A stretch of 40,650 nucleotides of DNA from Myxococcales bacterium (lineage in GTDB: Bacteria > Myxococcota_A > Polyangia > Polyangiales > Polyangiaceae). The DNA lies in NCBI GenBank assembly GCA_030590865.1, contig JAUVCD010000002.1, positions 1 through 40,650 on the forward strand. The letters are read 5' to 3'. Positions 20,333 to 38,513 of this stretch are shown here, one piece after another. The position numbers and the translations under genes are program-made. Numbering within the stretch: the first letter of the stretch is position 1; each line of letters opens with the position of its first letter. The notes under the pieces were generated by a model, which saw only the letters and a list, made by a program, of their open reading frames with translations, was not told the DNA's origin and searched no databases.

Positions 20333-21085
20333 TCAGTCAGCCAGGATCCGAGCCAGCTCCTCATCCGAGACATCGAAGTCGCCGAAGGCAGCTTGGGTGT
20401 CGTCGTGGTCATCCAGAGTCTCGTAGAGACTGAGGCAGCGTTCGGCTTTTTTGCCCTCCTGGGGCTTCTTGGCCTTGGGGATGTAGCCGACGGTGCTGCT
20501 CTCGACTTCGATGTTGGCTTTCTCGAGGGCCGTAGTCACCGGGTCCAGATCGCTGACGTCGGTGAGGATCTGCCAGCGTTCGTCTTCCTCCGAGTAGTCC
20601 TCGGCGCCGGCGTCCATGGTCAGCTCCATCAGCTTCTCTTCATCCGCGGCAGCCAGTGGAACGACGATGATGCCCTTGCGATCGAAGGCCCAGGCGGCGC
20701 TGCCGCCCGCGCCGATCGCGCCGGTGTGTTTTTCGAATACCTTGCGCAGCTCGGCCACCGTGCGGTTTCGGTTGTCCGTTAGCGTTTGGACCAACCACAA
20801 GGTGCCGCCAGGGCCGGTGCCTTCGTAGAGCACTTCCTCGTAGTTGATGCCCTCGAGCTCACCGGTGCCGCGCTTGACCGCCCGCTCGATGGTCTCGTTG
20901 GGCATCTGACTGCCTTTGGCGGTCGAGATGGCCTTGCGGAGCGGGGCGTTGCCCGTCGGATCGCCGCCGCCCATGCGGGCCGCAACCTGAATTTCTTTTA
21001 TGAGCCTGCTGAAGAGCTTGCCGCGCTTGGCGTCGGTAGCGCCCTTCTTGTGTTTGATGCTTGCCCACTTGGAATGGCCGCTCAT
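20333..21085 (-). CDS. yebC: YebC/PmpR (TACO1) family protein
   Basis: 250 aa, normal family length. It starts with the hallmark MSGHSKWASIKHKKGATDAKRGKLFSR, then MPNETIERAVKRGTGE, YEGTGPGG and NRNRTVAELRKVF, then GSAAWAFDRKG. GGTGGAAG lies just before the ATG. YebC proteins were first described as DNA-binding regulators. More recent work on YebC and mitochondrial TACO1 supports a role on the ribosome, helping translation of proline-rich stretches. The C-terminus has a lysine-rich insert (PKAKKPQEGKKAERC) and an acidic end (DDHDDTQAAFGDFDVSDEE). It lies downstream of the UPF0104-like gene on the same strand, with a 138-bp gap, so it may have its own promoter. Confidence 0.96.
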   Translation of the reverse strand: MSGHSKWASIKHKKGATDAKRGKLFSRLIKEIQVAARMGGGDPTGNAPLRKAISTAKGSQMPNETIERAVKRGTGELEGINYEEVLYEGTGPGGTLWLVQTLTDNRNRTVAELRKVFEKHTGAIGAGGSAAWAFDRKGIIVVPLAAADEEKLMELTMDAGAEDYSEEDERWQILTDVSDLDPVTTALEKANIEVESSTVGYIPKAKKPQEGKKAERCLSLYETLDDHDDTQAAFGDFDVSDEELARILAD

Positions 21086-21223
21086 GATTCTTCCACCTGG
21101 CGATGCGGGGCGCTCGGCCCCAGGTCGCGATGTAGGGTCCTAACCAGGGCGTAGCTTCAGCCGCCATGGGACGCAACCAGGCTGCGCGAAGGGTGGCTCG
21201 GAGGACCGGGGGCCGAGCGGCTC

Positions 21224-22213
21224 TCAGCGCTGCTCATCTTGCAGCTCACCCTGCAACTCTATGGGCGGTGGCGCGATCTGCCAGGCGACGAAGCCGAGCA
21301 ACACTGGCGTGAGGTACAACACGGCGAAGACCACCAAGCCGAAAGCGACTCCCTGCGAGGCGGCAAGCCCGAGGGCGGGAAACAGCAGGGCTAGCACCAG
21401 CTCTCGCACGCCAACGCCAGAGATGGAGATCGGCATGAGCCCCAGCAGGCTGGTCACCGCCAGCATGCTCATCACGTCGACGAAGGACAGGCCCAGTCCG
21501 AGCGATCCGCTCGCCAGCCAACCCTGGGCGTAGTTGCACAGGAAGCTGGCCACGGTCAGCGGTACGGTGACGAGCAGCGCCTTGCCCACCAGGGAGCGCA
21601 GCGCTTCGAGAAAGCGGTCGAGACCGCGCCGCTCTGGATCCCGGGCGATCCGGCCGTAGATGCGCCCCATCAGTCGCTCTGCCAGTCCCGGCAGCAGCAG
21701 AACGAGTGGGGAGAGCGCGATGACGGCCATGCTCGCCCAGGCAATGGCCATCACTTGGCCTGTCAACACCGTGGCGAAGTGGGCCACGCCAAAAGCCACG
21801 AAAGCGAGCAGCCCGTAGACGTCACAGAGCCGATCCATGACCGAGATAGCGAGCCCTTCCGAGTAGGGCATATCCATGTCGTGGCGCAGGTACTGCACCC
21901 GCAGTGCGTCACCGACTCGCCCTGGTGTGAGCATGCCCAGGTAGACCGATGCGAGAAAGGCCTGGTAGGCGCGGGTCAGCGGATAGCGGTGTCCCCGGGC
22001 TCGCAGCAGCATCCGCCAGCGCTCCACCTTCAAGTGGATGACCGGCAGGATGAGCAGGACTGCGGCCAGCAGCGAGCCGAGCCTGGCATTCTTCAAGCTC
22101 TCCCACAGTTGCTCGGGATCGCCGATCTTCAGCACCACGACGGCGAGCAGCAGCGGGCCGAGCAGGCGGATGCTCAGTCGGAGCCACCTGCGGCGAGTCG
22201 CAGGGTGTTTCAC
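21224..22213 (-). CDS. UPF0104/LPG-synthase-like integral membrane protein
   Basis: The real start is the GTG at 22213, which overlaps the TGA of the methyltransferase gene (GTGA). The track ORF (22387) only extends into that gene in another frame. The result is 329 aa with about eight transmembrane helices. The family pattern is visible: VERWRMLLRARG, SVYLGMLTPGRVGDALRVQYLR in the second to third helices, ISVMDRLCDVYGL, and LGLMPISISGVGVRELVLALLF near the end. This domain is shared by the flippase part of MprF and by AglD-like proteins, which move or transfer polyprenyl- or lipid-linked groups. The soluble aminoacyl-transferase part of MprF is absent, so lysine transfer is unlikely. A lipid or polyprenol flippase-type role is the best inference. 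Confidence 0.9.
   Translation of the reverse strand: MKHPATRRRWLRLSIRLLGPLLLAVVVLKIGDPEQLWESLKNARLGSLLAAVLLILPVIHLKVERWRMLLRARGHRYPLTRAYQAFLASVYLGMLTPGRVGDALRVQYLRHDMDMPYSEGLAISVMDRLCDVYGLLAFVAFGVAHFATVLTGQVMAIAWASMAVIALSPLVLLLPGLAERLMGRIYGRIARDPERRGLDRFLEALRSLVGKALLVTVPLTVASFLCNYAQGWLASGSLGLGLSFVDVMSMLAVTSLLGLMPISISGVGVRELVLALLFPALGLAASQGVAFGLVVFAVLYLTPVLLGFVAWQIAPPPIELQGELQDEQR
22210..22213 (-). promoter_or_regulatory. GTGA stop/start overlap (translational coupling)
   Basis: The methyltransferase TGA (22212-22210) shares two bases with the GTG start (22213-22211) of the UPF0104-like gene. Such overlaps usually mean the second start is used by ribosomes finishing the first gene. Confidence 0.85.
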
Positions 22214-22818
22214 TTCGGAGCCAGCAGGGTGAGCAGCCACGGATAGGAGGTGGTCATCTGTCGGATGTCGAAGCGCGACTCGAGCAGCTTGCGGAACGAC
22301 CGCGGCCCCCACTGGTTGACGTGTTCGATGTCGTTTCCCAGGCGGCTGATGTTCTTTCCTCGCAGCAGGTTGCTCAGCCGAAACCACGGTTCGTGGGGCA
22401 CGGTCAGCAGCACGTGAGCCGGCTCGAACTGGAGCACCTCGTCTAGCGCCCGTTCAGGCGTATCGAGGTGCTCGAGGATCTCGGCGCAGATCACCAGATC
22501 GAAGGGGCCGGACAGGAAGCTGAGGTCGTAGGCGCTGCCTTGGTGGGCCTCGACGCGGCTGAATTTCTCCTGGAGCAGTTGCAGGTCGTCAGGGTCCAAG
22601 TCGACGCCGGTGAAGCGAATGTCGGGCATGATTTCAGACAGGTAGCCCGACAGAAACCCCTCACCGACGCCAACCTCGAGGACTGATTTCACCGGCTCGG
22701 CTTGATGAAACAGATGGCGGACTCGGTCGACGAAGCGCCGGATCAATACCCGCTGCAGCGGATTGCGGCTTCGGTACTTGGGCGTGCTGAAACGATCGAA
22801 GTAGCTGTCCGGGACCAC
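22210..22818 (-). CDS. Class I SAM-dependent methyltransferase
   Basis: The start was moved from 23085 to the GTG at 22818, which follows an excellent GGAGGTGA. The upstream part of the track ORF is Ala/Pro/Arg-rich and not part of the domain. It is 202 aa. VKSVLEVGVGEGFLSGYLSE is the glycine-rich SAM-binding motif I, FTGVDLDPDDLQLL is the acidic loop that holds the ribose, FDLVICAEILEHLDTPERAL is motif IV, and VLLTVPHEPWFRL follows. This is the Methyltransf_11/23 type often found among glycan and lipid biosynthesis genes. The acceptor is unknown. The TGA overlaps the GTG of the membrane protein gene, so both are probably made together. Confidence 0.9.
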   Translation of the reverse strand: MVPDSYFDRFSTPKYRSRNPLQRVLIRRFVDRVRHLFHQAEPVKSVLEVGVGEGFLSGYLSEIMPDIRFTGVDLDPDDLQLLQEKFSRVEAHQGSAYDLSFLSGPFDLVICAEILEHLDTPERALDEVLQFEPAHVLLTVPHEPWFRLSNLLRGKNISRLGNDIEHVNQWGPRSFRKLLESRFDIRQMTTSYPWLLTLLAPK

Positions 22819-23036
22819 CGACTCACCTCCGCTCGCGCCAGCCGGCGCAGGGGCGACGGTGACAATAGCATGACCGACGAGTCTGGGAGCCGAGCACGTT
22901 GCGGCGGCCAATTCATGAGGTAAAGCTGGTAATGTGTGCGCTGCCAGGGCTGCCGGGCGTCCCAGTGAGCGTGGGCCCAGCCGCCACGGGCAGCAGCGCA
23001 GCGGCAGAACTCGGGGCGGGATAGCCAGCGAGCGGG

Positions 23037-25520
23037 ATGACCGAAAACGGCAAGCCAGAACCCCCAGCCCATCGGTCAGAGCCACCGGCCCCGGTGACTG
23101 AGTTGCGGGACGAGCTTGCCGGCGAGCCAGGCCCCAGCGGCGCGCCAGGCCCCAGCGGCGAGCCAGGCCTCACCGGCGAGCCAGGCCCCAGCGTCGCACC
23201 GGGCTCCACCGCCGAGGCCACAGTGAAGGCGGAGCCCAGTGGGCGGCCTTCCGCCTGGGCCATCATCCGCGCCAGCGTGGTGCTATCGCTCGTCACGGCG
23301 GCTCTCGCCGGATTTGGCGAAGGTGTGGTCGCGGCGGCCAAGGGCGGAACGAGCGTGCTGGCCGCCGCGCTCGGCATTGCCCTGTGTGGGGCCTTGCTGG
23401 CGGTCGTCGCTCCGGTCCTCGGACTGGTGCAAGGCGTCGCGGCGTGGCTCGTCGGCAATGCCGTTCGGCGGCTCGGGCTGACCGACTGGCTATTCCGTCA
23501 CACCACCGCCGACCGGGCGGCTCCGCGAGGGCCGGTCATCGGGTTCCAAGCCGCTCTGCTCGTCGTGCTGCCCACCACGGCAGCACTGCTGGTTGGACTG
23601 TGGGTGGTCCAAAAGGCGGTGGCTACCGTCCAAGATCCAGATCTTCGGGCCTGGCTCATCGTGGTCGCCGTGGCCATGCTGCTCGCCGGCGGTACGCTCG
23701 CCGGCGCGCTCGTCGGGCGCATCCTGCTCCGCCCGCTCGGCTGGATTGATCGTCGCTGGGGGCTGCCATGGCCGCGCCAGGCCGTGGCGCGCTACCTGCT
23801 GTTCGTCCTCCTGCCGGTGGTGGCTTTGCTGGTTCCGCTCATCCTGCGACATGGCGCTGTCCTGGGCAGGATCACCCTCTACCTGTGGCTCCTGTTGTTT
23901 CTGCTCGCCGAGGGCCTGCTGTGGCTGTTGTGGTCTTGGCTCGGTGCGAGGCGGCTGCGGCGACCCCGCCGTATCCGGCGAGTGCTGGTCGGGCTCTGGG
24001 CGTTGGCTATCGTCGGTGCTGGTGCGGCATTCGAGCTAGCGCCGTTCAGCGCAGGTATCTCGGTCAGCCGGACTATGGTGGCCCGGCAGAGCCTCGACCT
24101 GCTGCGTCATGGGACAGATGTCGACCGGGATGGTGCGTCTAGCCTGTTTGGCGGCGGCGACTGTGGACCCTTTGATGGTGCGGTCTCGCCAGCGGCTCGT
24201 GACGTTCCCGGCAATGGTGTGGACGAGAATTGCGATGGTAGGGACTCGGACCGTGGGGCGGGCAAGCAGATTGACATCGGCCCTTGGCGATCGGACCAGG
24301 CGCTCCTTGCGAGCAAGCTCAAGCCACGGAAGTACAACATCGTTTGGGTGATATCCGAAGCAACCCGAGCGGACCGGTGCAGCGTGACCGGTTATCGCAA
24401 GCGCACCACGCCGTACTTGGAGGGAATTGCCAAGGAGTCGCTGGTCTTCACCCGCGCCTACGCCAATGCGCCGGCGACGATGCTCTCGTTTCCCAGTCAG
24501 TTCACCGGACTGCGGCCGGGATCCATCACCTGGAAGCTTGGGCCCAAGAAGAGCACGAAGCCGCGGCTGCAGCTCACCGAGAAGCACCTGACCATCGCCG
24601 AGCGGCTCCGGGAGGTGGGATACCGCACCGGCATCGTTACCGGCCGTTACTCCAAGCGGGTGCTCTACGGCATGATGCAGGGCTTCGACAAGATCGCCGA
24701 TACCTGGCTCGATGGCCGCCGTATGCCTTGGTACGCTCGCAATGCCGCGGTGGCCGCAACCTTGGCGCTGTCCTTCATCGAGCAGGGGCTGTTGGTGGCC
24801 CATTCGAAGAAACCGTTCTTCTTGGTGGTCTACACGGCTGACGGGCACGACCCGTACCTGAGGCACAAAGAGGGCTTCCCGAATTTCGGGCGCAGTGCCT
24901 CGGATCGTTACGATGGTGAGATCGCTTTCACCGATCGCTACATGGGCATGCTCATCGACTACCTTCGCTATCGGCGCCCCTTGTGGGACAACACGGTGTT
25001 CATATTCACCGGTGACCACGGCGAGGAGTTTGGCGAGCACGGTGGCCATAAGCACGCCAAGACCTGCTATTGGGAGAGCCTTCGGGTGCCGCTGGTGGTG
25101 CGAATACCGGGGCTGGTGGGCAAGCGCATCGATCGCCGGGTGCCGCTAATCGACATCGTGCCGACGCTGCTCGACCTGCTCGCTGTGGATCCAGGGGGCA
25201 TGACGCTTGATGGGCAGAGTCTGCTCATTCCCGCTTTCGCCCCAGAAGAGGCCTCGAAGGAGCGACCGGTGACTTGCTCCGTGACGAGTCAGAAGCCAGC
25301 GGACGGTCGTTTCATGCGGCGAGCCATCCGACTCGGCGACCGGCTGTTGATCCACAACATGCTCGAAGGTCGCTACGAGTTCTACGACACCAAATCCGAT
25401 CCTCGCGAGCTGAACGACATCGTCGGCGCCCATTGGCAATCGGCCGAGGTAAGCGAACTCAGAGAGCTGCTCGCCGCAAGTCTGACCGGCAATCTAACCA
25501 CCCTCGAGATCCCCTACTGA
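23037..25520 (+). CDS. Membrane sulfatase/phosphotransferase-superfamily protein with collagen-like and MopE-like segments
   Basis: 827 aa. The N-terminus (28-57) has Gly-x-y triplets (GEPGPSGAPGPSGEPG). About six to eight membrane helices span residues 73-355. A 45-residue segment (about 359-406) has the MopE-type pattern DVDRDGASSLFGGGDC, then PGNGVDENCDG, known from copper/calcium-binding and myxobacterial surface proteins. The sulfatase-superfamily catalytic domain starts near 430: ISEATRADRCSVTGY (metal-binding acidic residue), APATMLSFPSQFTGL with Thr481 as the likely nucleophile, and TGDHGEEFGEHGG (metal ligands). There is no CxPxR formylglycine motif, so it resembles LTA-synthase or phosphoethanolamine-transferase-type enzymes more than classic sulfatases. 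It acts outside the inner membrane; the substrate is unknown. It is divergent from the methyltransferase gene. Confidence 0.9.
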   Translation: MTENGKPEPPAHRSEPPAPVTELRDELAGEPGPSGAPGPSGEPGLTGEPGPSVAPGSTAEATVKAEPSGRPSAWAIIRASVVLSLVTAALAGFGEGVVAAAKGGTSVLAAALGIALCGALLAVVAPVLGLVQGVAAWLVGNAVRRLGLTDWLFRHTTADRAAPRGPVIGFQAALLVVLPTTAALLVGLWVVQKAVATVQDPDLRAWLIVVAVAMLLAGGTLAGALVGRILLRPLGWIDRRWGLPWPRQAVARYLLFVLLPVVALLVPLILRHGAVLGRITLYLWLLLFLLAEGLLWLLWSWLGARRLRRPRRIRRVLVGLWALAIVGAGAAFELAPFSAGISVSRTMVARQSLDLLRHGTDVDRDGASSLFGGGDCGPFDGAVSPAARDVPGNGVDENCDGRDSDRGAGKQIDIGPWRSDQALLASKLKPRKYNIVWVISEATRADRCSVTGYRKRTTPYLEGIAKESLVFTRAYANAPATMLSFPSQFTGLRPGSITWKLGPKKSTKPRLQLTEKHLTIAERLREVGYRTGIVTGRYSKRVLYGMMQGFDKIADTWLDGRRMPWYARNAAVAATLALSFIEQGLLVAHSKKPFFLVVYTADGHDPYLRHKEGFPNFGRSASDRYDGEIAFTDRYMGMLIDYLRYRRPLWDNTVFIFTGDHGEEFGEHGGHKHAKTCYWESLRVPLVVRIPGLVGKRIDRRVPLIDIVPTLLDLLAVDPGGMTLDGQSLLIPAFAPEEASKERPVTCSVTSQKPADGRFMRRAIRLGDRLLIHNMLEGRYEFYDTKSDPRELNDIVGAHWQSAEVSELRELLAASLTGNLTTLEIPY
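23117..23200 (+). repeat. 18-bp in-frame tandem repeat (collagen-like triplets)
   Basis: About four units of a GGCGAGCCAGGCCCCAGC-like sequence encode the GEPGPS-type repeats before the first membrane helix. Units differ by a few bases, including one GGCCTCACC variant. Confidence 0.8.
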
Positions 25521-25586
25521 CTGGCGAGAGCTTGGTGAGCCTCGTGAGGGGTGCCGCGGCGACCGGTCCCGCCCAGCACCCAGGGA

Positions 25587-26654
25587 TCAATAGATCTCGA
25601 CTTCTTCGAGATGGAGGGTGGAGGTCTTGTCGACGGTCAGGCGCACGTGGCGCGCCCACTGGGGCTCGAAGCGGAGGGTCCAGGTGCTGAAGGGCTCGGT
25701 GTGCCGTGCGATCTCGCGGTACTCGCGGTCGTCTGAGCTCACCTCGACAATCAGCGGGATGGCGCGATCTCGAAACTCTCCAGGCCGGTTGGTCACCACG
25801 ATCCGCCGAATTTGGTAGAGCTGCATCAGGTCGATGCTGACCCAGGGCGAGGATTGCTCGCGGGTATGGCAGCCAATGCGGTCCTTGAGCCCGTCGGTCA
25901 GGCCTTCCTTGGGGAATCGGCGCGCCGAGTAGTGGCTACTGGCCTCGACGGGCTTGTAGAGAGCCAGATTGGGCGCGCGCCTCGAGTGCCTGAGCAGCAA
26001 GGAGCCACCGCGGCTGATGACGAGTGACAGCAACACCAGCAGTGCCCATCGTAGAATCCGTTGCGCCGTCACGGCCGCAGGGGTGTCCGCTTCTCGGTGC
26101 GCGGTGGCCAGTAGCCGACGCACGAATAGGGCGAGTGCCCGCCGGCGCTCTCGCCGATCGCGCCGATGGGCTACGTTCCATCCATCCTCTGGATTCCCTT
26201 CTTCCCACAGCTGCTGCACGAGATCCCGTGTCCGAGGAGGCAGAGCGGCAATCACCGTGGCGCCGGTGGGAAGCTCGGAGAGTCTCTTCCACAACGCCTG
26301 GGGTGACGCTGGAAACACCGTGTCCCCGGCGGCGGCGCTGAGGGCCGTCATGCCATGATGGGCGGCGCGAGCAAGCAGCACGAAACCGGCGCGCTCTCGC
26401 CCGGGCAAGTCCAACAGGAAGCGTGCCGCACGGGCCATTTCGTCGGCTCCGCGCAGGGCCGTCCAGCCCTCGCTGCCCCGCCGGAGGGGGGCCCGTCGCG
26501 CCTGCTTCATGCGATCGTTCAGCAGCAGGGGTTCGAGCCAGTCGGCGGCCAGCTTCTGTCTCGGAGGCCCCGACGACGGGGTAGGCTCATCGTCAGGCGA
26601 AAGCTCGTCCGTGTCCGGTTCTGTGGCGGCTGGCCCAGGTGTCTCGCTGGTCAC
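25587..26654 (-). CDS. Membrane-anchored discoidin (F5/8 type C) domain protein
   Basis: The start is the GTG at 26654, overlapping the TGA of the GT39-like gene (GTGA); the track start at 26708 lies inside that gene. This gives 355 aa. Residues 1-200 are soluble and probably cytoplasmic, with a Pro/Asp/Glu-rich beginning and a helical part (ARAAHHGMTALSAAAGD, TVIAALPPRTRDLVQQLW). One membrane helix is near 205-225 (ILRWALLVLLSLVIS). The outer part, from APNLALYKPVEASSHYSA, is a discoidin/CBM32-like beta sandwich: FPKEGLTDG, SSPWVSIDLMQLYQIRRIVV, IPLIVEVSSDDREY and ARHVRLTVDKTSTLHLEEVEIY. Such domains bind sugars or phospholipid headgroups. It is probably an envelope glycan-binding partner of the glycosyltransferases upstream. 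The N-terminal domain is unrecognised. Confidence 0.88.
   Translation of the reverse strand: MTSETPGPAATEPDTDELSPDDEPTPSSGPPRQKLAADWLEPLLLNDRMKQARRAPLRRGSEGWTALRGADEMARAARFLLDLPGRERAGFVLLARAAHHGMTALSAAAGDTVFPASPQALWKRLSELPTGATVIAALPPRTRDLVQQLWEEGNPEDGWNVAHRRDRRERRRALALFVRRLLATAHREADTPAAVTAQRILRWALLVLLSLVISRGGSLLLRHSRRAPNLALYKPVEASSHYSARRFPKEGLTDGLKDRIGCHTREQSSPWVSIDLMQLYQIRRIVVTNRPGEFRDRAIPLIVEVSSDDREYREIARHTEPFSTWTLRFEPQWARHVRLTVDKTSTLHLEEVEIY
26651..26654 (-). promoter_or_regulatory. GTGA stop/start overlap (translational coupling)
   Basis: The TGA of the GT39-like gene (26653-26651) overlaps the GTG start (26654-26652) of the discoidin-domain gene. This is the second such junction in the cluster and supports co-translation. 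Confidence 0.85.
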
Positions 26655-28288
26655 AGCGGTTGCTCCAATTCGTACAGCTTGACCCGGTGCCTGCCCCAGC
26701 CCTGCCAATCATAACTGGCCTTGAGCTTCTCGACTCGTGGGAAGCGGCGCCGCACCACTTTGTGGGTCCATCCGTTAGGGGTCTTCCAAAGTAGATGGGT
26801 GACGCCGAAGCTCTGAATGGTTGACTTGGTCGAGTTGAATTTGCGCTTCACGAAGTAGGCGCGGTATTTGGTGTCGAAGGTTAATGGAACGGCCCAAGCA
26901 CCGATTACGACGGCGGCGCGGGGCCCAATGATTGTGGCTATTCTGCGGTTCAGCTCAACTGTCGTGTAAGATGGTTCTCGTAGCCAGTCGTAATAAGAGC
27001 GCCCATGGACGGAGGCGTAAGCGAAGGCCAATATGATGAGGGCCGCCTCACGACAACGTGGCCGCTCGCGTAGACGCAGCCTTGCCCCGATGCGGTAGAT
27101 CAGATGGGCAGCCAGGAGTATGACCGGCGGGAAGAGAATCATGTAGAAGCGTAGCTGCGACTGGGCGCTGACTTGCATGGCGCCGAAGGCTGCGATGAAC
27201 CAAGTGGCTACCAATAACTCCCAGCCGTCCACTCGACGATGCCTCAGGCTGGCGACGGCCATGCGAACCAGTTCGATGAGCGCCAAGGGGAACGTCACTG
27301 GGAAGATGCCGAGGTAGCCTTTCTCCCAGCGCTCGTCGTCTGATAGCCGGTTCCATACCTCCCCCCAAGGTGTCGTGCTGAGATCGACCTCGGCGGCGAA
27401 CTGATCTTCGTCGTGAATGACGTGAGCGAAGTTCCATTGGACGGTGCGCCAGTATTCATCGGTCAGCACGACCTGGAGGGCCATCCAAGCGAGCAATACA
27501 CCGTGGGCGAGCACCAGCAAGTGAAGCCAAGGGCGCGAGCGGGTCCGCAGCACAGCCATGAGCCAACCGAGCAACAGGACGGGTGCGAATATCAAAGCGG
27601 ACTGCTTCGTGAAGAACGCTGCCGCGAATGCCCATTGAGCGCCGAACAGCCAGTGCGGCTTGGTGCGTGCGAGCAGCAGGCAGAGCAGGCTGAGGGCGAG
27701 CAGACCATTGACTTGAGGCTCGAGCAGACCCGCCCGGCTCGCAAAGATATCATAGACGTTGGTGGCCACGAGTAGGCCACAGAGCAATAGGGGCCACCCC
27801 CGCATGCGGCGTGACGCAACGGCGAGCAGCACGCACAGTCCGCCGGTGGCCACGATGATGGAGTACAGTCGGAGCTGGAGCATGCCGGCGCCGAACAGGC
27901 GAAAGACGCCGGCTATGGGATAGACCCAACATGGACTCTGGACGCGCCAGAATTGGTAGCCGTCTTCGGGGTGGGTTTGCCAAATCCCGAACACGCCCCA
28001 GTTTCGTGCCTCGTGGGCTTTGGCCGTTCCCTCGGTGATGAGCTCATAGCCCTTCATCTCGTTGGGCAGCATGAGCGGTGGATCGGCTTCGAGAAAGATC
28101 AGTCGCAATGCCAAAAAGACGGCCACCGCCAGCACCGGTGCCGCCCATTGGCTGGTCGCTTGTTCCTCGAGGTGCGCCTTGGCCTTGGTGCACCAGGCCT
28201 GGAGGTGCTGTCTCGTTGCCATCCCCACGTCAGCACCGTGCATAGCTGATTGCAGAATGCGCCGCCAGGACCGCAGAAGACCCCGCAC
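26651..28288 (-). CDS. GT-C (GT39/ArnT-like) membrane glycosyltransferase
   Basis: 545 aa, with about ten to twelve membrane helices. The first outside loop after helix 1 carries acidic residues (FLEADPPLMLPNEMKGYE), as expected for GT-C enzymes that use polyprenyl-phosphate sugars. VQSPCWVYPIAGVFRLFG and YDIFASRAGLLEPQVNGLLAL match conserved loops of the PMT/ArnT/Dpy19-type class. The C-terminal 130 residues are soluble and end with SFGVTHLLWKT, a phrase also found in the next GT-C-like protein. The donor and acceptor are unknown. The 3' third is visibly poorer in GC than its neighbours. The start is unclear: GTG 28288, ATG 28243 and ATG 28222 are all possible, none with a strong ribosome site. 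It is 51 bp from the upstream gene and overlaps the discoidin gene. Confidence 0.85.
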   Translation of the reverse strand: MRGLLRSWRRILQSAMHGADVGMATRQHLQAWCTKAKAHLEEQATSQWAAPVLAVAVFLALRLIFLEADPPLMLPNEMKGYELITEGTAKAHEARNWGVFGIWQTHPEDGYQFWRVQSPCWVYPIAGVFRLFGAGMLQLRLYSIIVATGGLCVLLAVASRRMRGWPLLLCGLLVATNVYDIFASRAGLLEPQVNGLLALSLLCLLLARTKPHWLFGAQWAFAAAFFTKQSALIFAPVLLLGWLMAVLRTRSRPWLHLLVLAHGVLLAWMALQVVLTDEYWRTVQWNFAHVIHDEDQFAAEVDLSTTPWGEVWNRLSDDERWEKGYLGIFPVTFPLALIELVRMAVASLRHRRVDGWELLVATWFIAAFGAMQVSAQSQLRFYMILFPPVILLAAHLIYRIGARLRLRERPRCREAALIILAFAYASVHGRSYYDWLREPSYTTVELNRRIATIIGPRAAVVIGAWAVPLTFDTKYRAYFVKRKFNSTKSTIQSFGVTHLLWKTPNGWTHKVVRRRFPRVEKLKASYDWQGWGRHRVKLYELEQPL

Positions 28289-28339
28289 TCGAGCGGGCGT
28301 GTTGTTTCCGAGCGGGGCACCAACTCGTGGGCAGCTGGT

Positions 28340-30742
28340 CTAGTCGGTGCGGAGGTAAAGTAGCCAGTTTGCTTTCCCTTTGCGCCGGCGCCCCGAGTTG
28401 ACGAGCTTGCGGCTGGCTGCGAGGGAGAACGCGCCATTCTGCTTCACTTTCTTCTCGGCGTGGCGCCCGCACCTGGGGTCGATGACCACATAGGACGCCT
28501 GGTCGATCAGCGCTTGCTCTTGCCCCTTTTTGGCCTGCTCCTCGGGCTTGGGGAAGTGTCGTCGGTCCGGGCCGAACACCGGCGTCGTCATGCCCTCGAG
28601 CGGGTAGAGCCCGGGCTTGTACATGTCTTTGCACCCGAAAAAAGCGACCTTGCCGAAAGGCTCATCGGTAGGCGGCTTGCCGGGCATGGTGGCGATCCAC
28701 GTCGAGCCGACTTTCTTTCGCCCGGTGCTTCGGCGGGTGGCGAAATCGAAGAACACGAGATCGCCGGCCACCGAGTCCCAGCCCTTGGACACCCGATCGC
28801 GCCACACTAGGTGAGTCACGCCCAGTTCGCGGTAAAGCTCCCAGACTTGCCTTGGCGACTTCAGTCGCCCGTAGCTGATCCCAAATTGCCAACCGCCCCA
28901 GTCTGAGGTGGTGCGCCGCGCCAGTCCCAGGTGGGTGTGGTTGTCGTGAAGCATCACGTGGGCGCGCTTCGGGAGCGCGGCCCGCACTTTCTGCCAGCCG
29001 GCACAGACGCTGAGCCGCGCGCCGTAGCGCTTCTTGTGACCTGCAGCCAAGAGGTCGAGACTCTTCTTGACCGGCGACTTGATCATGGCGTGGCTGGGAA
29101 TGAAGTAGACGTTTCCCCCGATGATGATCTGAGTGGCGACGAGGCTGCCCAAGAGGATGCGTGCGACGACGTGGGTGCGCCACAGATGGATCATGATCGC
29201 GGCGGTTACCGCCGCCATCCACGGGACGAGCGTCTGCAGATAGCGGTCCTGATGGTGGATCCAGAACCAGAGGAAGATCGCCAAGTGCGTCATTCCGGCG
29301 AGGGCCCAGATGCGCTTCGTCTTGCGCAAGAAGGGCAGGCAGAGGACCAGCAGCGTGAAGAGTGACCCGAAGACCGGCACCTTGCCGTGGTACCGGGCGT
29401 AGTCGTGGGGGATGAACGAGAAAGTGAACAGGGTCTCGACGGTCTCCTGCAGTCCGGCCCAGTCCCGACTGGGCCGCCAGAACTGGAAATCCTTGTAGCC
29501 CCATTCGAAGAGGGCCGCTGCGTCCTGGCTCCAGGGTCGCAGCGCGAGGTGCTCGTGCAGCGAGGGATAGAGCGGGTCGCCGTACCAAACCCAGTTGCGG
29601 AGCCAGAAAGGGCTGGTGGCCGCTAGGGCGACCGCTGCCGCCGCGAGCGGCCCCTGCCATTGAAAACGCCGCTGGGTTCTCCAGCCGATGGCCCGCCACA
29701 CCACGGTGCCCGCTACAGCGAGGATCGCGACCGGTGCCAGTAGCACGCCGGCGGTGAGCTTGGGCATTGCGGCGCCGGCCATCATGAGGGCCAAGAGCGC
29801 GCAGCGACCTGGCGGGAGATGGCGCAACGCTCGCAGCATGCAGATGAACACTGGCAGGGCGAAGAGCGCAGCAATGTGGTCGGCCCCGCAGGCGAGGCTC
29901 GAGTCGTAGAGCAGCACGCCGGGAAACAGCAGGCGCGCAACCCAGGTCGCGCTAGCGCGACTGTTGGGTACCAGCAGCCGCACCGCTGCCGGGATGGTTG
30001 CCAGCGTCCACAAGAAGCAGGTGAACTCCATGTGTGCCGCAAGCTCAATCTGGTCGAAGAGCGTCGCCTTCGGCAGGAGGAACGCCCAGGTGAAGAGGAT
30101 GCTCGCGAGGTGGGGGTTGGTGGCGACCGTCCACCCTTCGCCGAATCGAGGGATGGTGCCCACGTGGGCGTATTGCTCGGCCAGTGCCAGGTGTTTCCAG
30201 CGCGCGTCGAACTGGGCATTCTCTGGCGTCAGGATCTTGAAGTAGATCATCGCCACCACGGCGATGCCGAAGATCCAGATCACGAGCTCGAGGCGGCTAC
30301 GTGGTTGGCGCTCTTTCGCGCGGTGGCGCAGATGTCGCCGGTAGCGGCTCACTAGCCGGTAGAGCGGGGTCAGACCGACAGCGATCATGAACGCAGGCAA
30401 CAGGAAGAACAGCGGCCAGCGAAATGCCCCCACCATGGCGAGGGCGTTCATGCTCACGTAGAAGAGCACCACCCCAGCCGCAAAGCTCAGGCATAGCGTC
30501 TCGGCCAAAGGCAAGGGCGAGCCCCGCAATCGGCGGACCAGGGCATAGCCAGAGCTGACGCAGCCGAGGCTCCAGAAGGCGCAGCTGATCCAATAGCCGG
30601 CGTAGCGCCAGAACAACCACTCTTCGATGGGGTAGTGCTCGCCGTAGTGGCGGGCGAAAAATACCGTCGAAAGCAGAATGACAATCGGCGGGCCGATCTT
30701 CGTGGCTCGCTCTCGCCAGCGTGCTTTCCAGGACGTCGTCAC
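28340..30742 (-). CDS. Large GT-C-like polytopic membrane protein (800 aa)
   Basis: About twelve or more membrane helices and then a soluble C-terminal domain of roughly 230 residues. The first outside loop after the opening helices contains FKILTPENAQFDARWKHLAL, with acidic and basic residues as in GT-C enzymes. AKATLFDQIELAAHMEF-like loops and NPHLASILFTWAFLLPK follow. Near the end, LGVTHLVWRDRVSKGW mirrors the motif in the 545-aa GT39-like protein. I therefore place it as a probable lipid-linked-sugar glycosyltransferase or related envelope enzyme, without naming a substrate. It is the first gene of a minus-strand operon with the GT39-like and discoidin genes. GTG at 30742 has no strong ribosome site. 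It is divergent from the GT2 gene. Confidence 0.8.
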   Translation of the reverse strand: MTTSWKARWRERATKIGPPIVILLSTVFFARHYGEHYPIEEWLFWRYAGYWISCAFWSLGCVSSGYALVRRLRGSPLPLAETLCLSFAAGVVLFYVSMNALAMVGAFRWPLFFLLPAFMIAVGLTPLYRLVSRYRRHLRHRAKERQPRSRLELVIWIFGIAVVAMIYFKILTPENAQFDARWKHLALAEQYAHVGTIPRFGEGWTVATNPHLASILFTWAFLLPKATLFDQIELAAHMEFTCFLWTLATIPAAVRLLVPNSRASATWVARLLFPGVLLYDSSLACGADHIAALFALPVFICMLRALRHLPPGRCALLALMMAGAAMPKLTAGVLLAPVAILAVAGTVVWRAIGWRTQRRFQWQGPLAAAAVALAATSPFWLRNWVWYGDPLYPSLHEHLALRPWSQDAAALFEWGYKDFQFWRPSRDWAGLQETVETLFTFSFIPHDYARYHGKVPVFGSLFTLLVLCLPFLRKTKRIWALAGMTHLAIFLWFWIHHQDRYLQTLVPWMAAVTAAIMIHLWRTHVVARILLGSLVATQIIIGGNVYFIPSHAMIKSPVKKSLDLLAAGHKKRYGARLSVCAGWQKVRAALPKRAHVMLHDNHTHLGLARRTTSDWGGWQFGISYGRLKSPRQVWELYRELGVTHLVWRDRVSKGWDSVAGDLVFFDFATRRSTGRKKVGSTWIATMPGKPPTDEPFGKVAFFGCKDMYKPGLYPLEGMTTPVFGPDRRHFPKPEEQAKKGQEQALIDQASYVVIDPRCGRHAEKKVKQNGAFSLAASRKLVNSGRRRKGKANWLLYLRTD

Positions 30743-30811
30743 GTGTTCAGCTCAGAGAGGATAGTGGCCCATGTCGCGGTTCGCAACGGAGCACCGAGAG
30801 GCTCGCCAGCC

Positions 30812-31849
30812 ATGCCCAGCGCCGGCAGCGGGCCGTGCGAGCCGCGCTTTGGGAGACCTGCTATAAGCCGGCCCGTGGCTGACGATGGCGGTAAGCGAGA
30901 CGATGAGGCTGCGCCCGAGGTGTTTCTGGTGGTGCCTGGGCTCAATGAGGCCGAGAGCCTGCCCGAGTTGGCCGAGCGCATCCACGAGGCGCTGGACGGG
31001 TTGCGGCGCTACGAGCTGATTTTCGTGGACGACGGCAGCACCGACGATACCTGGAAGGTCATCGGCCAGCTCAACCGAGAAAACCCCGCTGTGCGAGGCA
31101 TTCGCCTGCGGGCTAATTTCGGCAAGGCGATGGCCCTGACGGCGGGCTTCGATCAGGCCCAGGCCGATCTGGTCGTGATGATGGATGCCGATTTGCAGGA
31201 TGACCCGTCTGATCTGCCCAACTTCCTGGACAAGATCGCCGAGGGACTCGACGTGGTCGTCGGTTGGAAAGTCGATCGCCGCGATCCCCTGAACCGGAAG
31301 GTGCTGTCCCGCATCTTCAACGGCACCGTGGGAATCGTGACCGGGGTCAAGCTGCACGACATGAACTGCGGGTTCAAAGCCCTCCGCAAAGAAGTGCTGG
31401 CTGCCATTCCCATCTACGGAGATTTGTTCCGCTTCATCCCGGTGCTGGCCAAGTGGCAGGGATTCCGAATCGCCGAGGTCCCGGTCAAGCACCACGCTCG
31501 CAAGCACGGCCGCTCGCGTTATGGGCTCGAGCGTATCCTGCGCGGCCTTTTCGACCTGGCCAGCATCGTTTTTCTCACTCGCTACTCGCGCAAACCGATG
31601 CACCTGTTCGGGCTCATCGGCCTGCTTGCAGCGGGCGTGGGCTTCGGGGTTTGCGTCTACCTGACGGTTCTCTGGGCGCTGGGCCAGAGCATCGGCACCC
31701 GGCCGCTCTTGATGCTAGGCGTGCTGCTCATCATGTTGGGGATGCAGTTCTTCTCGCTAGGCCTGATCGGTGAGTTCCTGACCTTTCAGCACCAGCGTCG
31801 CCACGAGCGGGACCTGCCTCCGATCCGGGCGATCATCGGCGACCGGTAA
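30812..31849 (+). CDS. GT2 polyprenyl-phosphate sugar transferase (DPMS/ArnC-like)
   Basis: About 345 aa. The glycosyltransferase 2 fold is plain: FLVVPGLNEAESLPELAERI, IFVDDGSTDDTWKVI, RLRANFGKAMALTAGFDQA, MMDADLQDDPSDLPNFL (the DxD metal site) and MNCGFKALRKEVL. Two C-terminal helices (FGLIGLLAAGVGFGVCVYL and LLMLGVLLIMLGMQFFSLGLIGEF) place it at the inner membrane. Related enzymes move a sugar from a nucleotide donor to undecaprenyl or dolichyl phosphate, making the donor used by GT-C enzymes; neighbours on both sides are GT-C-like. ATG at 30812 has GAGAGG ten bases upstream; GTG at 30875 (VADDGGK) is the other candidate. The track start at 30635 overlaps the divergent gene and is rejected. 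Confidence 0.92.
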   Translation: MPSAGSGPCEPRFGRPAISRPVADDGGKRDDEAAPEVFLVVPGLNEAESLPELAERIHEALDGLRRYELIFVDDGSTDDTWKVIGQLNRENPAVRGIRLRANFGKAMALTAGFDQAQADLVVMMDADLQDDPSDLPNFLDKIAEGLDVVVGWKVDRRDPLNRKVLSRIFNGTVGIVTGVKLHDMNCGFKALRKEVLAAIPIYGDLFRFIPVLAKWQGFRIAEVPVKHHARKHGRSRYGLERILRGLFDLASIVFLTRYSRKPMHLFGLIGLLAAGVGFGVCVYLTVLWALGQSIGTRPLLMLGVLLIMLGMQFFSLGLIGEFLTFQHQRRHERDLPPIRAIIGDR

Positions 31850-31953
31850 CGCCTTCCTGTCGCCGGCTCCTCGCGCTATGGCCTCAGTCGTGGTGTGCCT
31901 ACCAGCCTCAGACAACCCACAGGCGACGCCGGCTGTCGTCGTCGCGACCGGCA

Positions 31954-34191
31954 ATGCGTGAGCTGTTAGCCAAGGCACGGCAGCTGCTCCGTCGCGGGTT
32001 GGCCGCTATCGACGGCACCGTGTCTCGGGTGGCGATCCAGTCCCAGCGGCTGCTGATCATGCCGCTGCTGATCGCCGTGGCCCTAGCCGCCACGGCCTGG
32101 CCGCTGCTGCACCGCGATCGACTGGCCCAGCTGGCGGGCAACAAGCTCGCCAAGCCCGAGCGGAGCGAGGCGCTGCTCTACCTCGGTGTCGCCGCTGGGG
32201 GCCTTTTAGTTCTCTATGGCTTGGCCATCTTGGTCGTGCGCCTCTGGGCCCATCGGTGGCGCACCGCTGCCGTCGTGGCCACCCTCAACCGCTGGCTCTC
32301 GTTCTTGCTGGCGGCTCCTTTCGTCGTCTGGATGCTCACGCCCAAGGTAGAAACCAAGAGCCCTCGGCTCACCCTGATATTCGCCTTGATTGCCGCGCTG
32401 GCCTGTCTGCCGACGTTCATGGCCATGGTGGGTTCCAAAGGACAAGAGGGCCCGCTCTCCAGGGAAGATCGCTGGGGCCGATTGCGCGAATGGTTGCGCG
32501 GTACAGGCCGTTACCTCGCCCCCTTGGCCGTCTTGGCGCTGCTGGTCGCCTACGCCTACTTCTTCTCGAAGCTGGCGATCACCAACCACCACGGGCTGGC
32601 GTCCCGGACGACCGATCTGGGCTACTACGACAACATCTTCTACCAGTCGATTCACGGGCGGCCGCTGGACTGTACCTTCCTCAAGACGGGCAACCACAGC
32701 TCAGCCCATTTCGATCCGATCCTGGTCGTCTTGTCGCCTCTCTATCTGCTCTACCCGCGGGCCGAGGGGATCCTGGTGTTGCAGTCGGTGTGGCTCGCCA
32801 TCGGCGTGCTGCCGGCCTACCTGATCGGCAAGCACCACCTGGGCAGCCGTACCGCAGGAGTGATCTTGGCGGCCGTCTATGCGCTCTACCCGGCGCTACA
32901 CGGCGCCAACATGTACGAGTTTCACTCGCTGACCTTGCTGGTCATGCCCTTCATGTGGGCCATCTATTTCATCGAGGTGGGCCACTTCAAGCGGTACTAC
33001 CTGCTGCTCCCGATCTTGCTGTTGATCCGGGAAGACGTGTCGCTGGTGATGTGCTTCGTGGGGGGCTACGCCATCCTCACCCGCCGGCCGGGTCGAGTGC
33101 GACTCGGTTGGATCACCATCTTGGTCAGCTTGATCTACCTGGTGGTCGTCAAGACGGTCTTCATGACCTCCCCCGACATCTTGCAGGCAGGCAAGAACTC
33201 CTACTCTTTCGCCTACTACTACCGAGATCTGATTCCCAAAGGTGAGAGCATCGGTGGGCTGCTGACGTCCCTGTTCACTAACCCAACCTTCCTGTTCGAC
33301 CTGGTGCTGCGGGAGGGCAAGCTCACTTTCGCCGGAAAGCTGCTCGTACCCCTGCTGTTCCTGCCGCTGTTCGCCAAGCGGGGCCGCTTCATCTTGATCT
33401 ACGGCGCCATCTTCTTGCTGCTGGCGACCCGCAAGGCGGTCTACGAGATCCACTTCCAGTACACCGCGGTCGCCTTCCCGGCGATGATCATGTTGGTGCC
33501 CGCAGCGTTGCGACGGCTGCGCGACGGAGGCGGAGATCGCTACTTCGGCTTGGACACTCGACGGCTGAGCCGCGCCCTCTTGGGCAGCGTGTTGGTCGCA
33601 ACCGCCCTGTGTTCCTGGAAGTTCGGCGCCATCGCCAAGAATGCCAGCTTCCGGGGCGGTTTTCAGCGGGTGGTGCGGGAGCTCAACGAGGAGCAAGCCA
33701 AACGGTACGCCAAGATCAGCGAGATGGTCGCCCGAATCGAGCCTGGGGCCAGTGTGAGTACGACCAACCAGGTCGGTCCCCATGTGTCCAACCGCAAAGA
33801 GGTGTACTTCAACCGCCAGCGCAAGCGCACCCACTACGTCTTCGTCAACGAGAAGGAAATCAAGGGCAAACGGCGGACCCACCACCAGCGCCGCATTGCC
33901 CGCGGAGAGCTCGAGCTGCTCGACAGCTACAAGCAGTTCAAGCTGTTTCGGGTGCACGCGGACAAGCGGAATGCTCCAGTGCCCGAAGGGGCGGTCAAGC
34001 CGGAGCGGACGAAGAAGAAGCGCGACAAACCCCGGTCCAAAGCCAACCGTCGGAAGCTCGGGGCTGCCCAAGGCGGAGCTGGCCAGGATGGCGGAGCACC
34101 CCAGCGGCCCAAGCTGCGAGGTGGGAAATTGGGCCCGAAGCCTGACGACGTGGACATCGATCGGGCGCTGCGCGACGAGCTACCACGATAG
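31954..34191 (+). CDS. DUF2079 membrane protein with basic C-terminal tail
   Basis: 745 aa, with about ten to twelve membrane helices. The DUF2079 family pattern is clear: TTDLGYYDNIFYQSIHGRPL (acidic site in the first outside loop), SSAHFDPILVVLSPLYLLYP, GILVLQSVWLAIGVLPAYLIG, and YEFHSLTLLVMPFMWAIYF, then LLIREDVSLVMCFVGGY. The family has a GT-C-like layout and is thought to transfer sugars, but few members have been tested. A soluble domain (about 560-660) and a Lys/Arg-rich tail (TKKKRDKPRSKANRRK, then acidic DDVDIDRALRDE) follow; the tail is unusual for the family. It lies 104 bp after the GT2 gene, same strand, and is a likely user of the lipid-linked sugar the GT2 enzyme makes. The fold assignment is sound; the reaction is inference. 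Confidence 0.88.
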   Translation: MRELLAKARQLLRRGLAAIDGTVSRVAIQSQRLLIMPLLIAVALAATAWPLLHRDRLAQLAGNKLAKPERSEALLYLGVAAGGLLVLYGLAILVVRLWAHRWRTAAVVATLNRWLSFLLAAPFVVWMLTPKVETKSPRLTLIFALIAALACLPTFMAMVGSKGQEGPLSREDRWGRLREWLRGTGRYLAPLAVLALLVAYAYFFSKLAITNHHGLASRTTDLGYYDNIFYQSIHGRPLDCTFLKTGNHSSAHFDPILVVLSPLYLLYPRAEGILVLQSVWLAIGVLPAYLIGKHHLGSRTAGVILAAVYALYPALHGANMYEFHSLTLLVMPFMWAIYFIEVGHFKRYYLLLPILLLIREDVSLVMCFVGGYAILTRRPGRVRLGWITILVSLIYLVVVKTVFMTSPDILQAGKNSYSFAYYYRDLIPKGESIGGLLTSLFTNPTFLFDLVLREGKLTFAGKLLVPLLFLPLFAKRGRFILIYGAIFLLLATRKAVYEIHFQYTAVAFPAMIMLVPAALRRLRDGGGDRYFGLDTRRLSRALLGSVLVATALCSWKFGAIAKNASFRGGFQRVVRELNEEQAKRYAKISEMVARIEPGASVSTTNQVGPHVSNRKEVYFNRQRKRTHYVFVNEKEIKGKRRTHHQRRIARGELELLDSYKQFKLFRVHADKRNAPVPEGAVKPERTKKKRDKPRSKANRRKLGAAQGGAGQDGGAPQRPKLRGGKLGPKPDDVDIDRALRDELPR

Positions 34192-36941: not shown

Positions 36942-38513
36942 TCAGTGGATCGCTCGGACCTTGACGCGGCCGGACTTGAGGTCCCCGCTCAGCTCGACCT
37001 CGAAGCGATTGGAGTCGACGCTCTGGTCGGTGAAGATGGCCAGAATCTTGGCGGCCCGGTCGTTGGTGAGCTTCTTCCGGGCGCCCTTGGTGCCAATCGA
37101 GAGGCTCACCTGCTCGATCTTGGGATTGGCTCGCATGGTGCGGATCACCTCGATGAGCGCCTCCCGTGACTTGGCCGGGAGCTTGGCACTGCGTTTCGGG
37201 AACCGAATCGGCGGGGTGATCACGAAGTCATCGCCCTCGAGGCGGGCATACTTCGGGCAACCGTCGCTGGTCGGGCCTGGCTCAGTCGGGCAGGGATCGA
37301 CCGGATCGGCAAAGTGATCGTTGTCCTGGTCTGGGCAGCCGTTGGCGTCGGGATCATCGTATTTGGCGCCCGGCTCGTCAGGACAGGCGTCGTCCTCGAT
37401 GATGCCATCGCCATCCAGATCCTGAGGGTCTGGGCAGCCCCGGCGTTCCTTGGGCCCAGCCTCTTCCGGGCAGGCGTCGTATTCATCTTCGATGCCGTCT
37501 AGATCCGCGTCTTGGACCACCTCTACGATGACTCGTTCGCCCTTCGCGGCGTAGCCGACGGTGAGCATTCCGCGAGCCGAGGCGGTGCCTGGTGCGGTGC
37601 CCATTCCGGGGCCGGCGGCGAAGCCGATGCTGAAGTCGCCGAAGCGAACCTGGGCCACGGCGAGGGGCTCGAATTGGGCGACGATGCCGCCGTTGCCGAG
37701 CCCCGCTACCTGTCGGTTCAGGTCCTCCTCTTCCTCCGCCTCGAGGTCGGAGCGGACGTAGTTGAACAGGGCGAAGTGAGGCTCGAGCCCCACTGAGATG
37801 GCTGGGGCCAGCGCAAAGTGGGCGGCACAAGAGGCGGCTATTCGGTCGCCGTCTCCGCCGGCGAAGAACAGCGGTGCCAGGCCCAGGGTGCACCCGTAGG
37901 TCACCAGGTCGATCTCGCCAGCCACCGAGCCCACTAGCTCGAGGCGAATGAAATGGTGCTTCCCACCGAGGTAGGCCTTGGTGCTCCCCGTGGGAGCCCA
38001 GACCCGGGCGCCCAGCGCCAGGTCGAGGTCTTCGCCGGTGATCGGTCGCCCGAAGGCGCCGATGCGCAGATCACCCTGACCGGGCTCACCGGCGGGGAAG
38101 GACTCGGAGGAGACGCGGGTCTCGTCGTCTCCGCCCTCGAAGACCGCGAAAGGGAAGTTGAGCTCGAAGTTGAGCCAGTACAGGGGGCTGAGCGAGGCGC
38201 CCAAATGGAACAGGAGTGCGTGGGCCACCGGTGCCAAGTTATCGGTTGTCATCGTGGGTGTTGGGTTCAACACCGTGCTCTGCAGGGGCATGAAGGCGTA
38301 GTCGCCGGTGAGCCGAAAGGCGTAGGCGACGCCCTCGTCGAACTCCTCGTGTGGCCCTTCGGCTCGCGTAAACGGGCTACCCGCTGAGGCGGGCTGCATC
38401 TGGTCGATGCGGATCTCAGAGCCGTGACCCTGTGCCAGGGCCGATGTGGGGGTCAGCAACACTCCCGTCGCTACGACAGCTGCTACTCGGGGCCTTAGAG
38501 CAGTCACACGCAC
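36942..38513 (-). CDS. Outer-membrane protein with thrombospondin-3 repeats and OmpA-like end
   Basis: 523 aa. The signal peptide ends at SALAQG. Residues 60-330 are alternating amphipathic strands (FRLTGDYAFMPL, LYWLNFELNFPFAVF, FIRLELVGSVAGEIDLVTY), as in a beta-barrel. At 340-420 are calcium-binding thrombospondin type 3 repeats (DADLDGIEDEYDACP, DLDGDGIIEDDACPDEPG, DQDNDHFADPVDPCP). The end (about 430-523) is OmpA-like: FPKRSAKLPAKSREALIEVIRTM and LTNDRAAKILAIF. The Arg of the peptidoglycan-binding loop is kept, but the usual Asp of GHTD is replaced (SIGTKG), so binding to diaminopimelate may be lost or altered. The protein probably spans the outer membrane and reaches the cell wall. It is convergent with the lipoprotein at 35847. 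Confidence 0.9.
   Translation of the reverse strand: MRVTALRPRVAAVVATGVLLTPTSALAQGHGSEIRIDQMQPASAGSPFTRAEGPHEEFDEGVAYAFRLTGDYAFMPLQSTVLNPTPTMTTDNLAPVAHALLFHLGASLSPLYWLNFELNFPFAVFEGGDDETRVSSESFPAGEPGQGDLRIGAFGRPITGEDLDLALGARVWAPTGSTKAYLGGKHHFIRLELVGSVAGEIDLVTYGCTLGLAPLFFAGGDGDRIAASCAAHFALAPAISVGLEPHFALFNYVRSDLEAEEEEDLNRQVAGLGNGGIVAQFEPLAVAQVRFGDFSIGFAAGPGMGTAPGTASARGMLTVGYAAKGERVIVEVVQDADLDGIEDEYDACPEEAGPKERRGCPDPQDLDGDGIIEDDACPDEPGAKYDDPDANGCPDQDNDHFADPVDPCPTEPGPTSDGCPKYARLEGDDFVITPPIRFPKRSAKLPAKSREALIEVIRTMRANPKIEQVSLSIGTKGARKKLTNDRAAKILAIFTDQSVDSNRFEVELSGDLKSGRVKVRAIH

Follow-up and report, generated by a model that had tools for sequence, protein, structure and literature searches.

A candidate transmembrane glycosylation module with a UPF0104 protein in Polyangiales

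Eight neighbouring genes in the draft genome of a member of the Polyangiales belong to a real, repeatedly co-inherited set of soil myxobacteria. We consider it fairly likely that the locus encodes a multi-component transmembrane glycosylation module, which would probably load a sugar onto a membrane lipid, flip it outward and attach it to the cell surface. The set offers a concrete, testable object for the study of surface sugars in myxobacteria that apparently lack lipid A, a field little explored so far.

Results

Layout of the locus

The window (the whole stretch of DNA analysed, 40,650 nucleotides) comes from a draft assembly of 9.5 Mb that is about 96% complete. The eight-gene set spans 21224-34191, and a D-Ala-D-Ala ligase gene and yebC flank it:

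20333-21085: YebC, housekeeping flank
21224-22213 (-): UPF0104 / LPG_synthase_TM membrane protein, candidate flippase for a lipid-linked sugar (PF03706, TIGR00374)
22210-22818 (-): class I SAM-dependent methyltransferase, MT (PF13649/PF08241)
23037-25520 (+): sulfatase-fold enzyme, SULF, a multi-pass membrane enzyme that belongs to the sulfatase/alkaline-phosphatase superfamily and carries Thr in the nucleophile position (PF00884, 1.3e-42)
25587-26654 (-): discoidin protein, DISC, a protein with one membrane pass and, at its C-terminus, a discoidin (F5/8 type C) domain (PF00754, 1.7e-10)
26651-28222 (-): GTC545, a GT-C-like membrane protein of 545 aa (PMT_2, 4.8e-05, under the curated cut-off)
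28340-30742 (-): GTC800, a membrane protein of 800 aa with a predicted GT-C fold, from an unnamed family (AF2 model; no Pfam)
30812-31849 (+): GT2, putative polyprenyl-phosphate-sugar synthase of ArnC/GtrB/DPMS type with C-terminal membrane helices (PF00535, PDB profile matches)
31954-34191 (+): DUF2079 membrane protein with a predicted GT-C fold (PF09852, 1.1e-53; AF2 model)

All eight genes that the first-pass annotation had named for the set are present at the locus. Its system had begun at 20333; however, the first gene of that stretch is yebC, a mere neighbour, which we dropped as a member because it is a housekeeping gene, although one relative (L084) also keeps it beside UPF0104. Corrected gene models bear out both GTGA overlaps and both divergent pairs. 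One overlap joins the MT stop to the GTG start of UPF0104 (22213-22210) and the other joins the GTC545 stop to the GTG start of DISC (26654-26651), while MT/SULF and GTC800/GT2 are divergent. When the divergent gap between MT and SULF was folded, no RNA structure signal was found (z 0.13). The MT start (22818) was set by orthologues beginning MIPDSYF, and the starts of UPF0104 (22213) and DISC (26654) by orthologues and overlaps; both MT and UPF0104 are shorter than their longest frames. GT2 probably starts at 30812, and GTC545 has alternative starts at 28243 or 28288.

Linkage across the order

Each locus protein was searched in one common sample of 116 genomes from the order, whose named members include Polyangium, Sorangium, Minicystis and Polyangiaceae MAGs. 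Distances were then measured, and genes within 10 kb of each other were scored as linked. The counts are raw and come from one order, and binomial P values, which ignore phylogeny, are rough only. Linkages are undercounted because most of the genomes are drafts and break at contig ends.

Scattering of single genes among relatives without co-occurrence, which the first-pass annotation had named as the finding that would speak against a system, was not seen. Every other close copy of UPF0104 (13/13) and of MT (12/12) lies within 10 kb of another set member, as do all 11 other copies of GT2 with at least 66% identity. MT adjoins GT2 in 11 of its 12 other close copies, their matches overlapping or nearly so; GT2 and UPF0104 stay linked in five genera; DUF2079-GT2 pairs occur in 19 genomes from 12 genera; and DISC adjoins GT-C genes in several relatives. 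Two relatives carry compact operons, UPF0104-GT2-MT-DUF2079 (L082) and GT2-MT-DUF2079-UPF0104 (L083), and two others show the orders YebC-UPF0104-...-MT-GT2-epimerase-DUF2079 (L084) and GT2-DISC-DUF2079-SULF (L094).

Conservation of the neighbourhood stands for linked pairs and fails for the set as a whole: the complete set was found in no other genome of the 116, relatives carry subsets, and GTC545 is private, with no relatives in the 115 other genomes. GTC800 occurs in 22 of the 116 genomes, and 13 of its 30 other places have no counted family within 10 kb. No close DUF2079 was found in the Polyangium-type genomes of the sample. Among culturable relatives, Polyangium has UPF0104, GTC800, GT2 and MT, and Minicystis rosea has GTC800. 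A phylum-wide search with UPF0104 added only four genomes, all of the same family.

Could such an arrangement be a chance or loose glycan island, whose neighbours share no pathway and are held together by descent? Related genomes do share ancestry, their subsets differ, a private gene sits mid-locus, and GT2 and sulfatase genes abound in myxobacterial genomes. Against this, linkage persists while gene orders and orientations differ between genera, with linked pairs in 36 genomes, 18 genera and three families, and control genes are hardly ever found near any set member (LpxC 0/15, LpxK 0/14, GtrA 2/46 and sulfatase paralogues 3/70, one of the three linked paralogues being a truncated relative with 38% identity). 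Linkage counts and controls thus largely refute the island, which we regard as very improbable. The same non-random co-localisation supports the functional link that had been proposed among the genes.

The sugar genes beside the module vary among relatives: a GalE-type epimerase in some, a GDP-fucose synthase in others. Since the neighbours point to different sugars in different relatives, naming one donor sugar from them was given up; the donor may vary as well.

At three loci of Polyangium type (L035, L036 and L038), tandem GTC800 genes have as neighbours UPF0104, a sulfatase-fold gene of the Thr type and a gene for a 929-aa membrane protein that has no Pfam match. A GDP-L-fucose synthase gene is nearby in L035 and L038.

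GT2 and the methyltransferase

When a family profile of GT2 (16 relatives) was compared with PDB sequences, the best solved relatives were all polyprenyl-phosphate glycosyltransferases: ArnC was the closest (1.7e-81), followed by GtrB (4e-58) and dolichol-P-mannose synthase, DPMS (2.8e-35). With two hydrophobic segments near its C-terminus (327-345 and 360-378), GT2 looks like a polyprenyl-phosphate-sugar synthase with C-terminal transmembrane helices, and the earlier view of it as the probable charger of a polyprenyl carrier agrees with these matches. MT would methylate the lipid-linked sugar or its precursor, as ArnD acts between ArnC and ArnT; it could instead act on a free sugar, on a nucleotide sugar or elsewhere.

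GT-C-like proteins

GTC800 has no Pfam match at all, and no mention of DUF2079 by that name was found in the literature searched. AF2 models were made of both (pLDDT 86 for each; pTM 0.88 for GTC800, whose collection scan used a 7-row alignment). Every significant Foldseek match was to a GT-C enzyme: the top 26 PDB matches of GTC800 include STT3, ArnT, AftA, Emb, ALG9 and PglB, and the top 16 of DUF2079 include ArnT (first), PglB, OST, AglB and DPY19. Asp179 is invariant in GTC800, and His212 and Asp221 in DUF2079; both Asp residues directly follow a transmembrane helix, the position of the catalytic Asp in GT-C enzymes. As far as models can tell, the first-pass reading of the 800-aa protein as GT-C-like is upheld, and two families without an assigned function gain a predicted place in the GT-C fold. 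GTC545, in turn, has no match among PDB sequences at E up to 10.

The acceptor type cannot be read from these matches because the TM-scores of both models are modest (0.3-0.5). This bears on the possibility that the module glycosylates proteins, the GT-C proteins passing a lipid-linked sugar on to proteins that are secreted or sit in the outer membrane (in the manner of PMT, DPY19 or OST) with no glycolipid or polymer being made. OST/STT3, PglB, AglB, DPY19 and Pmt4 are all found among the fold matches of the two models; archaeal neighbourhoods of UPF0104, GT2 and PMT/STT3 have been tied to protein glycosylation (PMC5898192), and such a system would be workable in cells free of LPS. However, Foldseek does not separate the acceptors at such scores, and the presence of several GT-C proteins, a Thr-type phosphotransferase-like enzyme and a domain of carbohydrate-binding type better suits a glycan or glycolipid. 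Protein glycosylation is, in our opinion, rather unlikely.

UPF0104 and the flippase question

UPF0104 matches PF03706 (1.2e-44), exceeds the cut-off of the flippase-like domain TIGR00374 and has eight hydrophobic segments; no relative was found among PDB sequences at E up to 0.01. Proteins of the UPF0104 family have been predicted to flip glycolipids (PMC5898192, PMC12713373). No GtrA-, Wzx- or MATE-type flippase was found at the locus, and the Pfam families matched by its proteins include neither GtrA nor any Wzx flippase, Wzy polymerase, export or ligase family, which bears out the claim that the locus is no standard Wzx/Wzy polysaccharide cluster. The sole GtrA detected in the host genome lies on a different contig (C271). 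We infer that UPF0104 fills the flippase place instead of GtrA, in keeping with the observation that GtrA is undetected in 5 of the 14 genomes with UPF0104 and never lies beside it.

PF03706 is also the family of the MprF flippase domain, and UPF0104 proteins can move phospholipids too. Another explanation is therefore that UPF0104 moves a phospholipid, or an aminoacyl or glycosyl phospholipid, in the manner of MprF or GpgF; the module would then make a modified phospholipid whose headgroups the GT-C proteins glycosylate outside. The precedent is GpgF, a UPF0104 protein and predicted flippase in GlcN-PG synthesis (PMC12713373). On the other hand, the set contains no lipid-headgroup synthase, and the GT2 that is kept with UPF0104 in five genera is of polyprenyl-phosphate type. 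We find this explanation improbable, and under the preferred reading a bacterial UPF0104 protein becomes connected with a polyprenyl-phosphate-sugar pathway.

SULF and DISC

The call of a membrane enzyme from the sulfatase superfamily is confirmed at the level of the superfamily and fails for a sulfatase in the strict sense. Thr481 of SULF occupies the alignment column of the sulfatases' catalytic Cys, replacing the Cys/Ser of the C/S-x-P-S-R motif, and is invariant in 18 of 18 homologues; a sulfatase dependent on FGly was rejected for this reason. Asp660, His661 and His673 are residues of metal-site type. SULF is a probable phosphotransferase or phosphodiesterase. Like the Thr-nucleophile phosphotransferases of LtaS/EptA/MCR type, it combines a membrane part with a sulfatase-fold domain and has Thr at the nucleophile position; however, its sequence lies between sulfatases and LtaS/EptA, and it carries a MopE-like insert.

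That insert (residues ~355-405, between the membrane part and the catalytic domain) contains a weak metal-binding motif of MopE type (DVDRDG...GNGVDENCDGRD). The motif recurs in SULF relatives of 36-42% identity that lie next to DUF2079, and is absent from the Polyangium-type homologues.

DISC, which has one hydrophobic segment, is a candidate glycan-binding accessory.

Proposed pathway and described systems

Under the glycosylation module that we favour, GT2 would load a nucleotide-sugar onto polyprenyl phosphate on the cytoplasmic side of the inner membrane, and UPF0104 would flip the lipid-sugar outward, replacing GtrA. The GT-C proteins (DUF2079, GTC800 and here also GTC545) would glycosylate an extracytoplasmic envelope acceptor with the lipid-sugar as donor. 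DISC might hold the acceptor or the growing glycan, and SULF might add or remove a phosphate-linked substituent. The data show the gene set, the predicted folds, the residues at catalytic positions, the conserved linkage and an apparent lack of LpxC and LpxK; we infer the order and direction of the steps, the roles of UPF0104 as flippase and of SULF as phosphotransferase, the substrates (that of MT included), the acceptor and the product.

This scheme resembles the aminoarabinose pathway ArnC-ArnD-ArnEF-ArnT, in which a sugar is charged, modified on the lipid, flipped and transferred by a GT-C enzyme. The module shares the order of charging, modification, flipping and transfer, and its GT2 is closest to ArnC; it differs in having MT in the place of ArnD and UPF0104 in that of ArnEF, and in a host genome in which the lipid A pathway is undetected.

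The qualification of the locus as an undescribed system was too strong, as it fits a logic already described: a polyprenyl-phosphate-sugar synthase, a flippase and a GT-C enzyme, exemplified by GtrA-GtrB-Gtr(X), CsbB-GtcA-YfhO, GtlA-GtcA-GtlB and the GT136 pentofuranose systems (PMC8035078, PMC11127046). The module likewise encodes a putative synthase with C-terminal membrane helices, GT-C proteins and a candidate flippase. We call it a variant because UPF0104 takes the place of a GtrA, Wzx or MATE flippase; other differences are the MT linked to GT2, the two or three GT-C proteins, the separate DISC and SULF, and the LpxC-negative host. A parallel is also known in archaea, where neighbourhoods of UPF0104, GT2 and a PMT/STT3-like enzyme have been pointed out (AglD/UPF0104; arCOG00899, arCOG00563, arCOG00897; PMC5898192). 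The likeness, a UPF0104 candidate flippase beside GT2 and a PMT/STT3-like transferase, is one of neighbourhood pattern only; the present module is bacterial and Gram-negative, its GT2 and UPF0104 are separate rather than fused, and MT, DISC and SULF are added.

Lipid A context

Neither LpxC nor LpxK was detected in the host genome, an absence that is not absolute in a draft about 96% complete. LpxC was undetected in 88 of the 116 genomes and LpxK in 85, mostly the same ones; lipid A loss thus looks widespread in the order, in agreement with a passage in PMC3924187 that describes Sorangium cellulosum as lacking LPS (citing Keck et al. 2011).

These data weigh on the idea of a system that modifies lipid A or LPS like ArnC-ArnT. 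GT2 is indeed closest to ArnC, and ArnT is the top fold match of DUF2079. However, the lipid A acceptor that an ArnT-type enzyme would have in the cell is not apparent in the host, as LpxC and LpxK were not found, and their genes never lie near the module in the genomes searched. LpxC is present in 11 of the 22 GTC800 genomes and in 6 of the 14 UPF0104 genomes, and undetected in the other 11 and 8. The module, occurring as it does both with and without LpxC, does not require lipid A as its target, and an LPS-modifying system appears highly unlikely.

A bolder speculation, to which we give only a small chance, is that the module serves the LPS-independent assembly of a surface glycan or glycolipid in Polyangiales devoid of lipid A. 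An O-methylated polyprenyl-phosphate-sugar flipped by UPF0104 would feed several GT-C enzymes, with a membrane-anchored lectin-like protein and a phosphotransferase of the Thr type as helpers, yielding an outer-leaflet decoration that replaces LPS.

Other features of the window

Three further genes, all on the minus strand, were observed outside the set. The gene at 6355-7980 encodes a hybrid protein with an FHA domain, a histidine kinase and a response-regulator receiver. The product of 12480-13865 belongs to the reductive dehalogenase family (TIGR02486, 231 bits versus a cut-off of 160) and has a 4Fe-4S double-cluster domain, which is unexpected in Polyangiaceae. The protein encoded at 36942-38513 contains type-3-repeat-like sequence and resembles TraB, an outer membrane exchange protein, over the C-terminal part of the latter, with a match to NF033763 (8e-18) that is far under the cut-off of that model.
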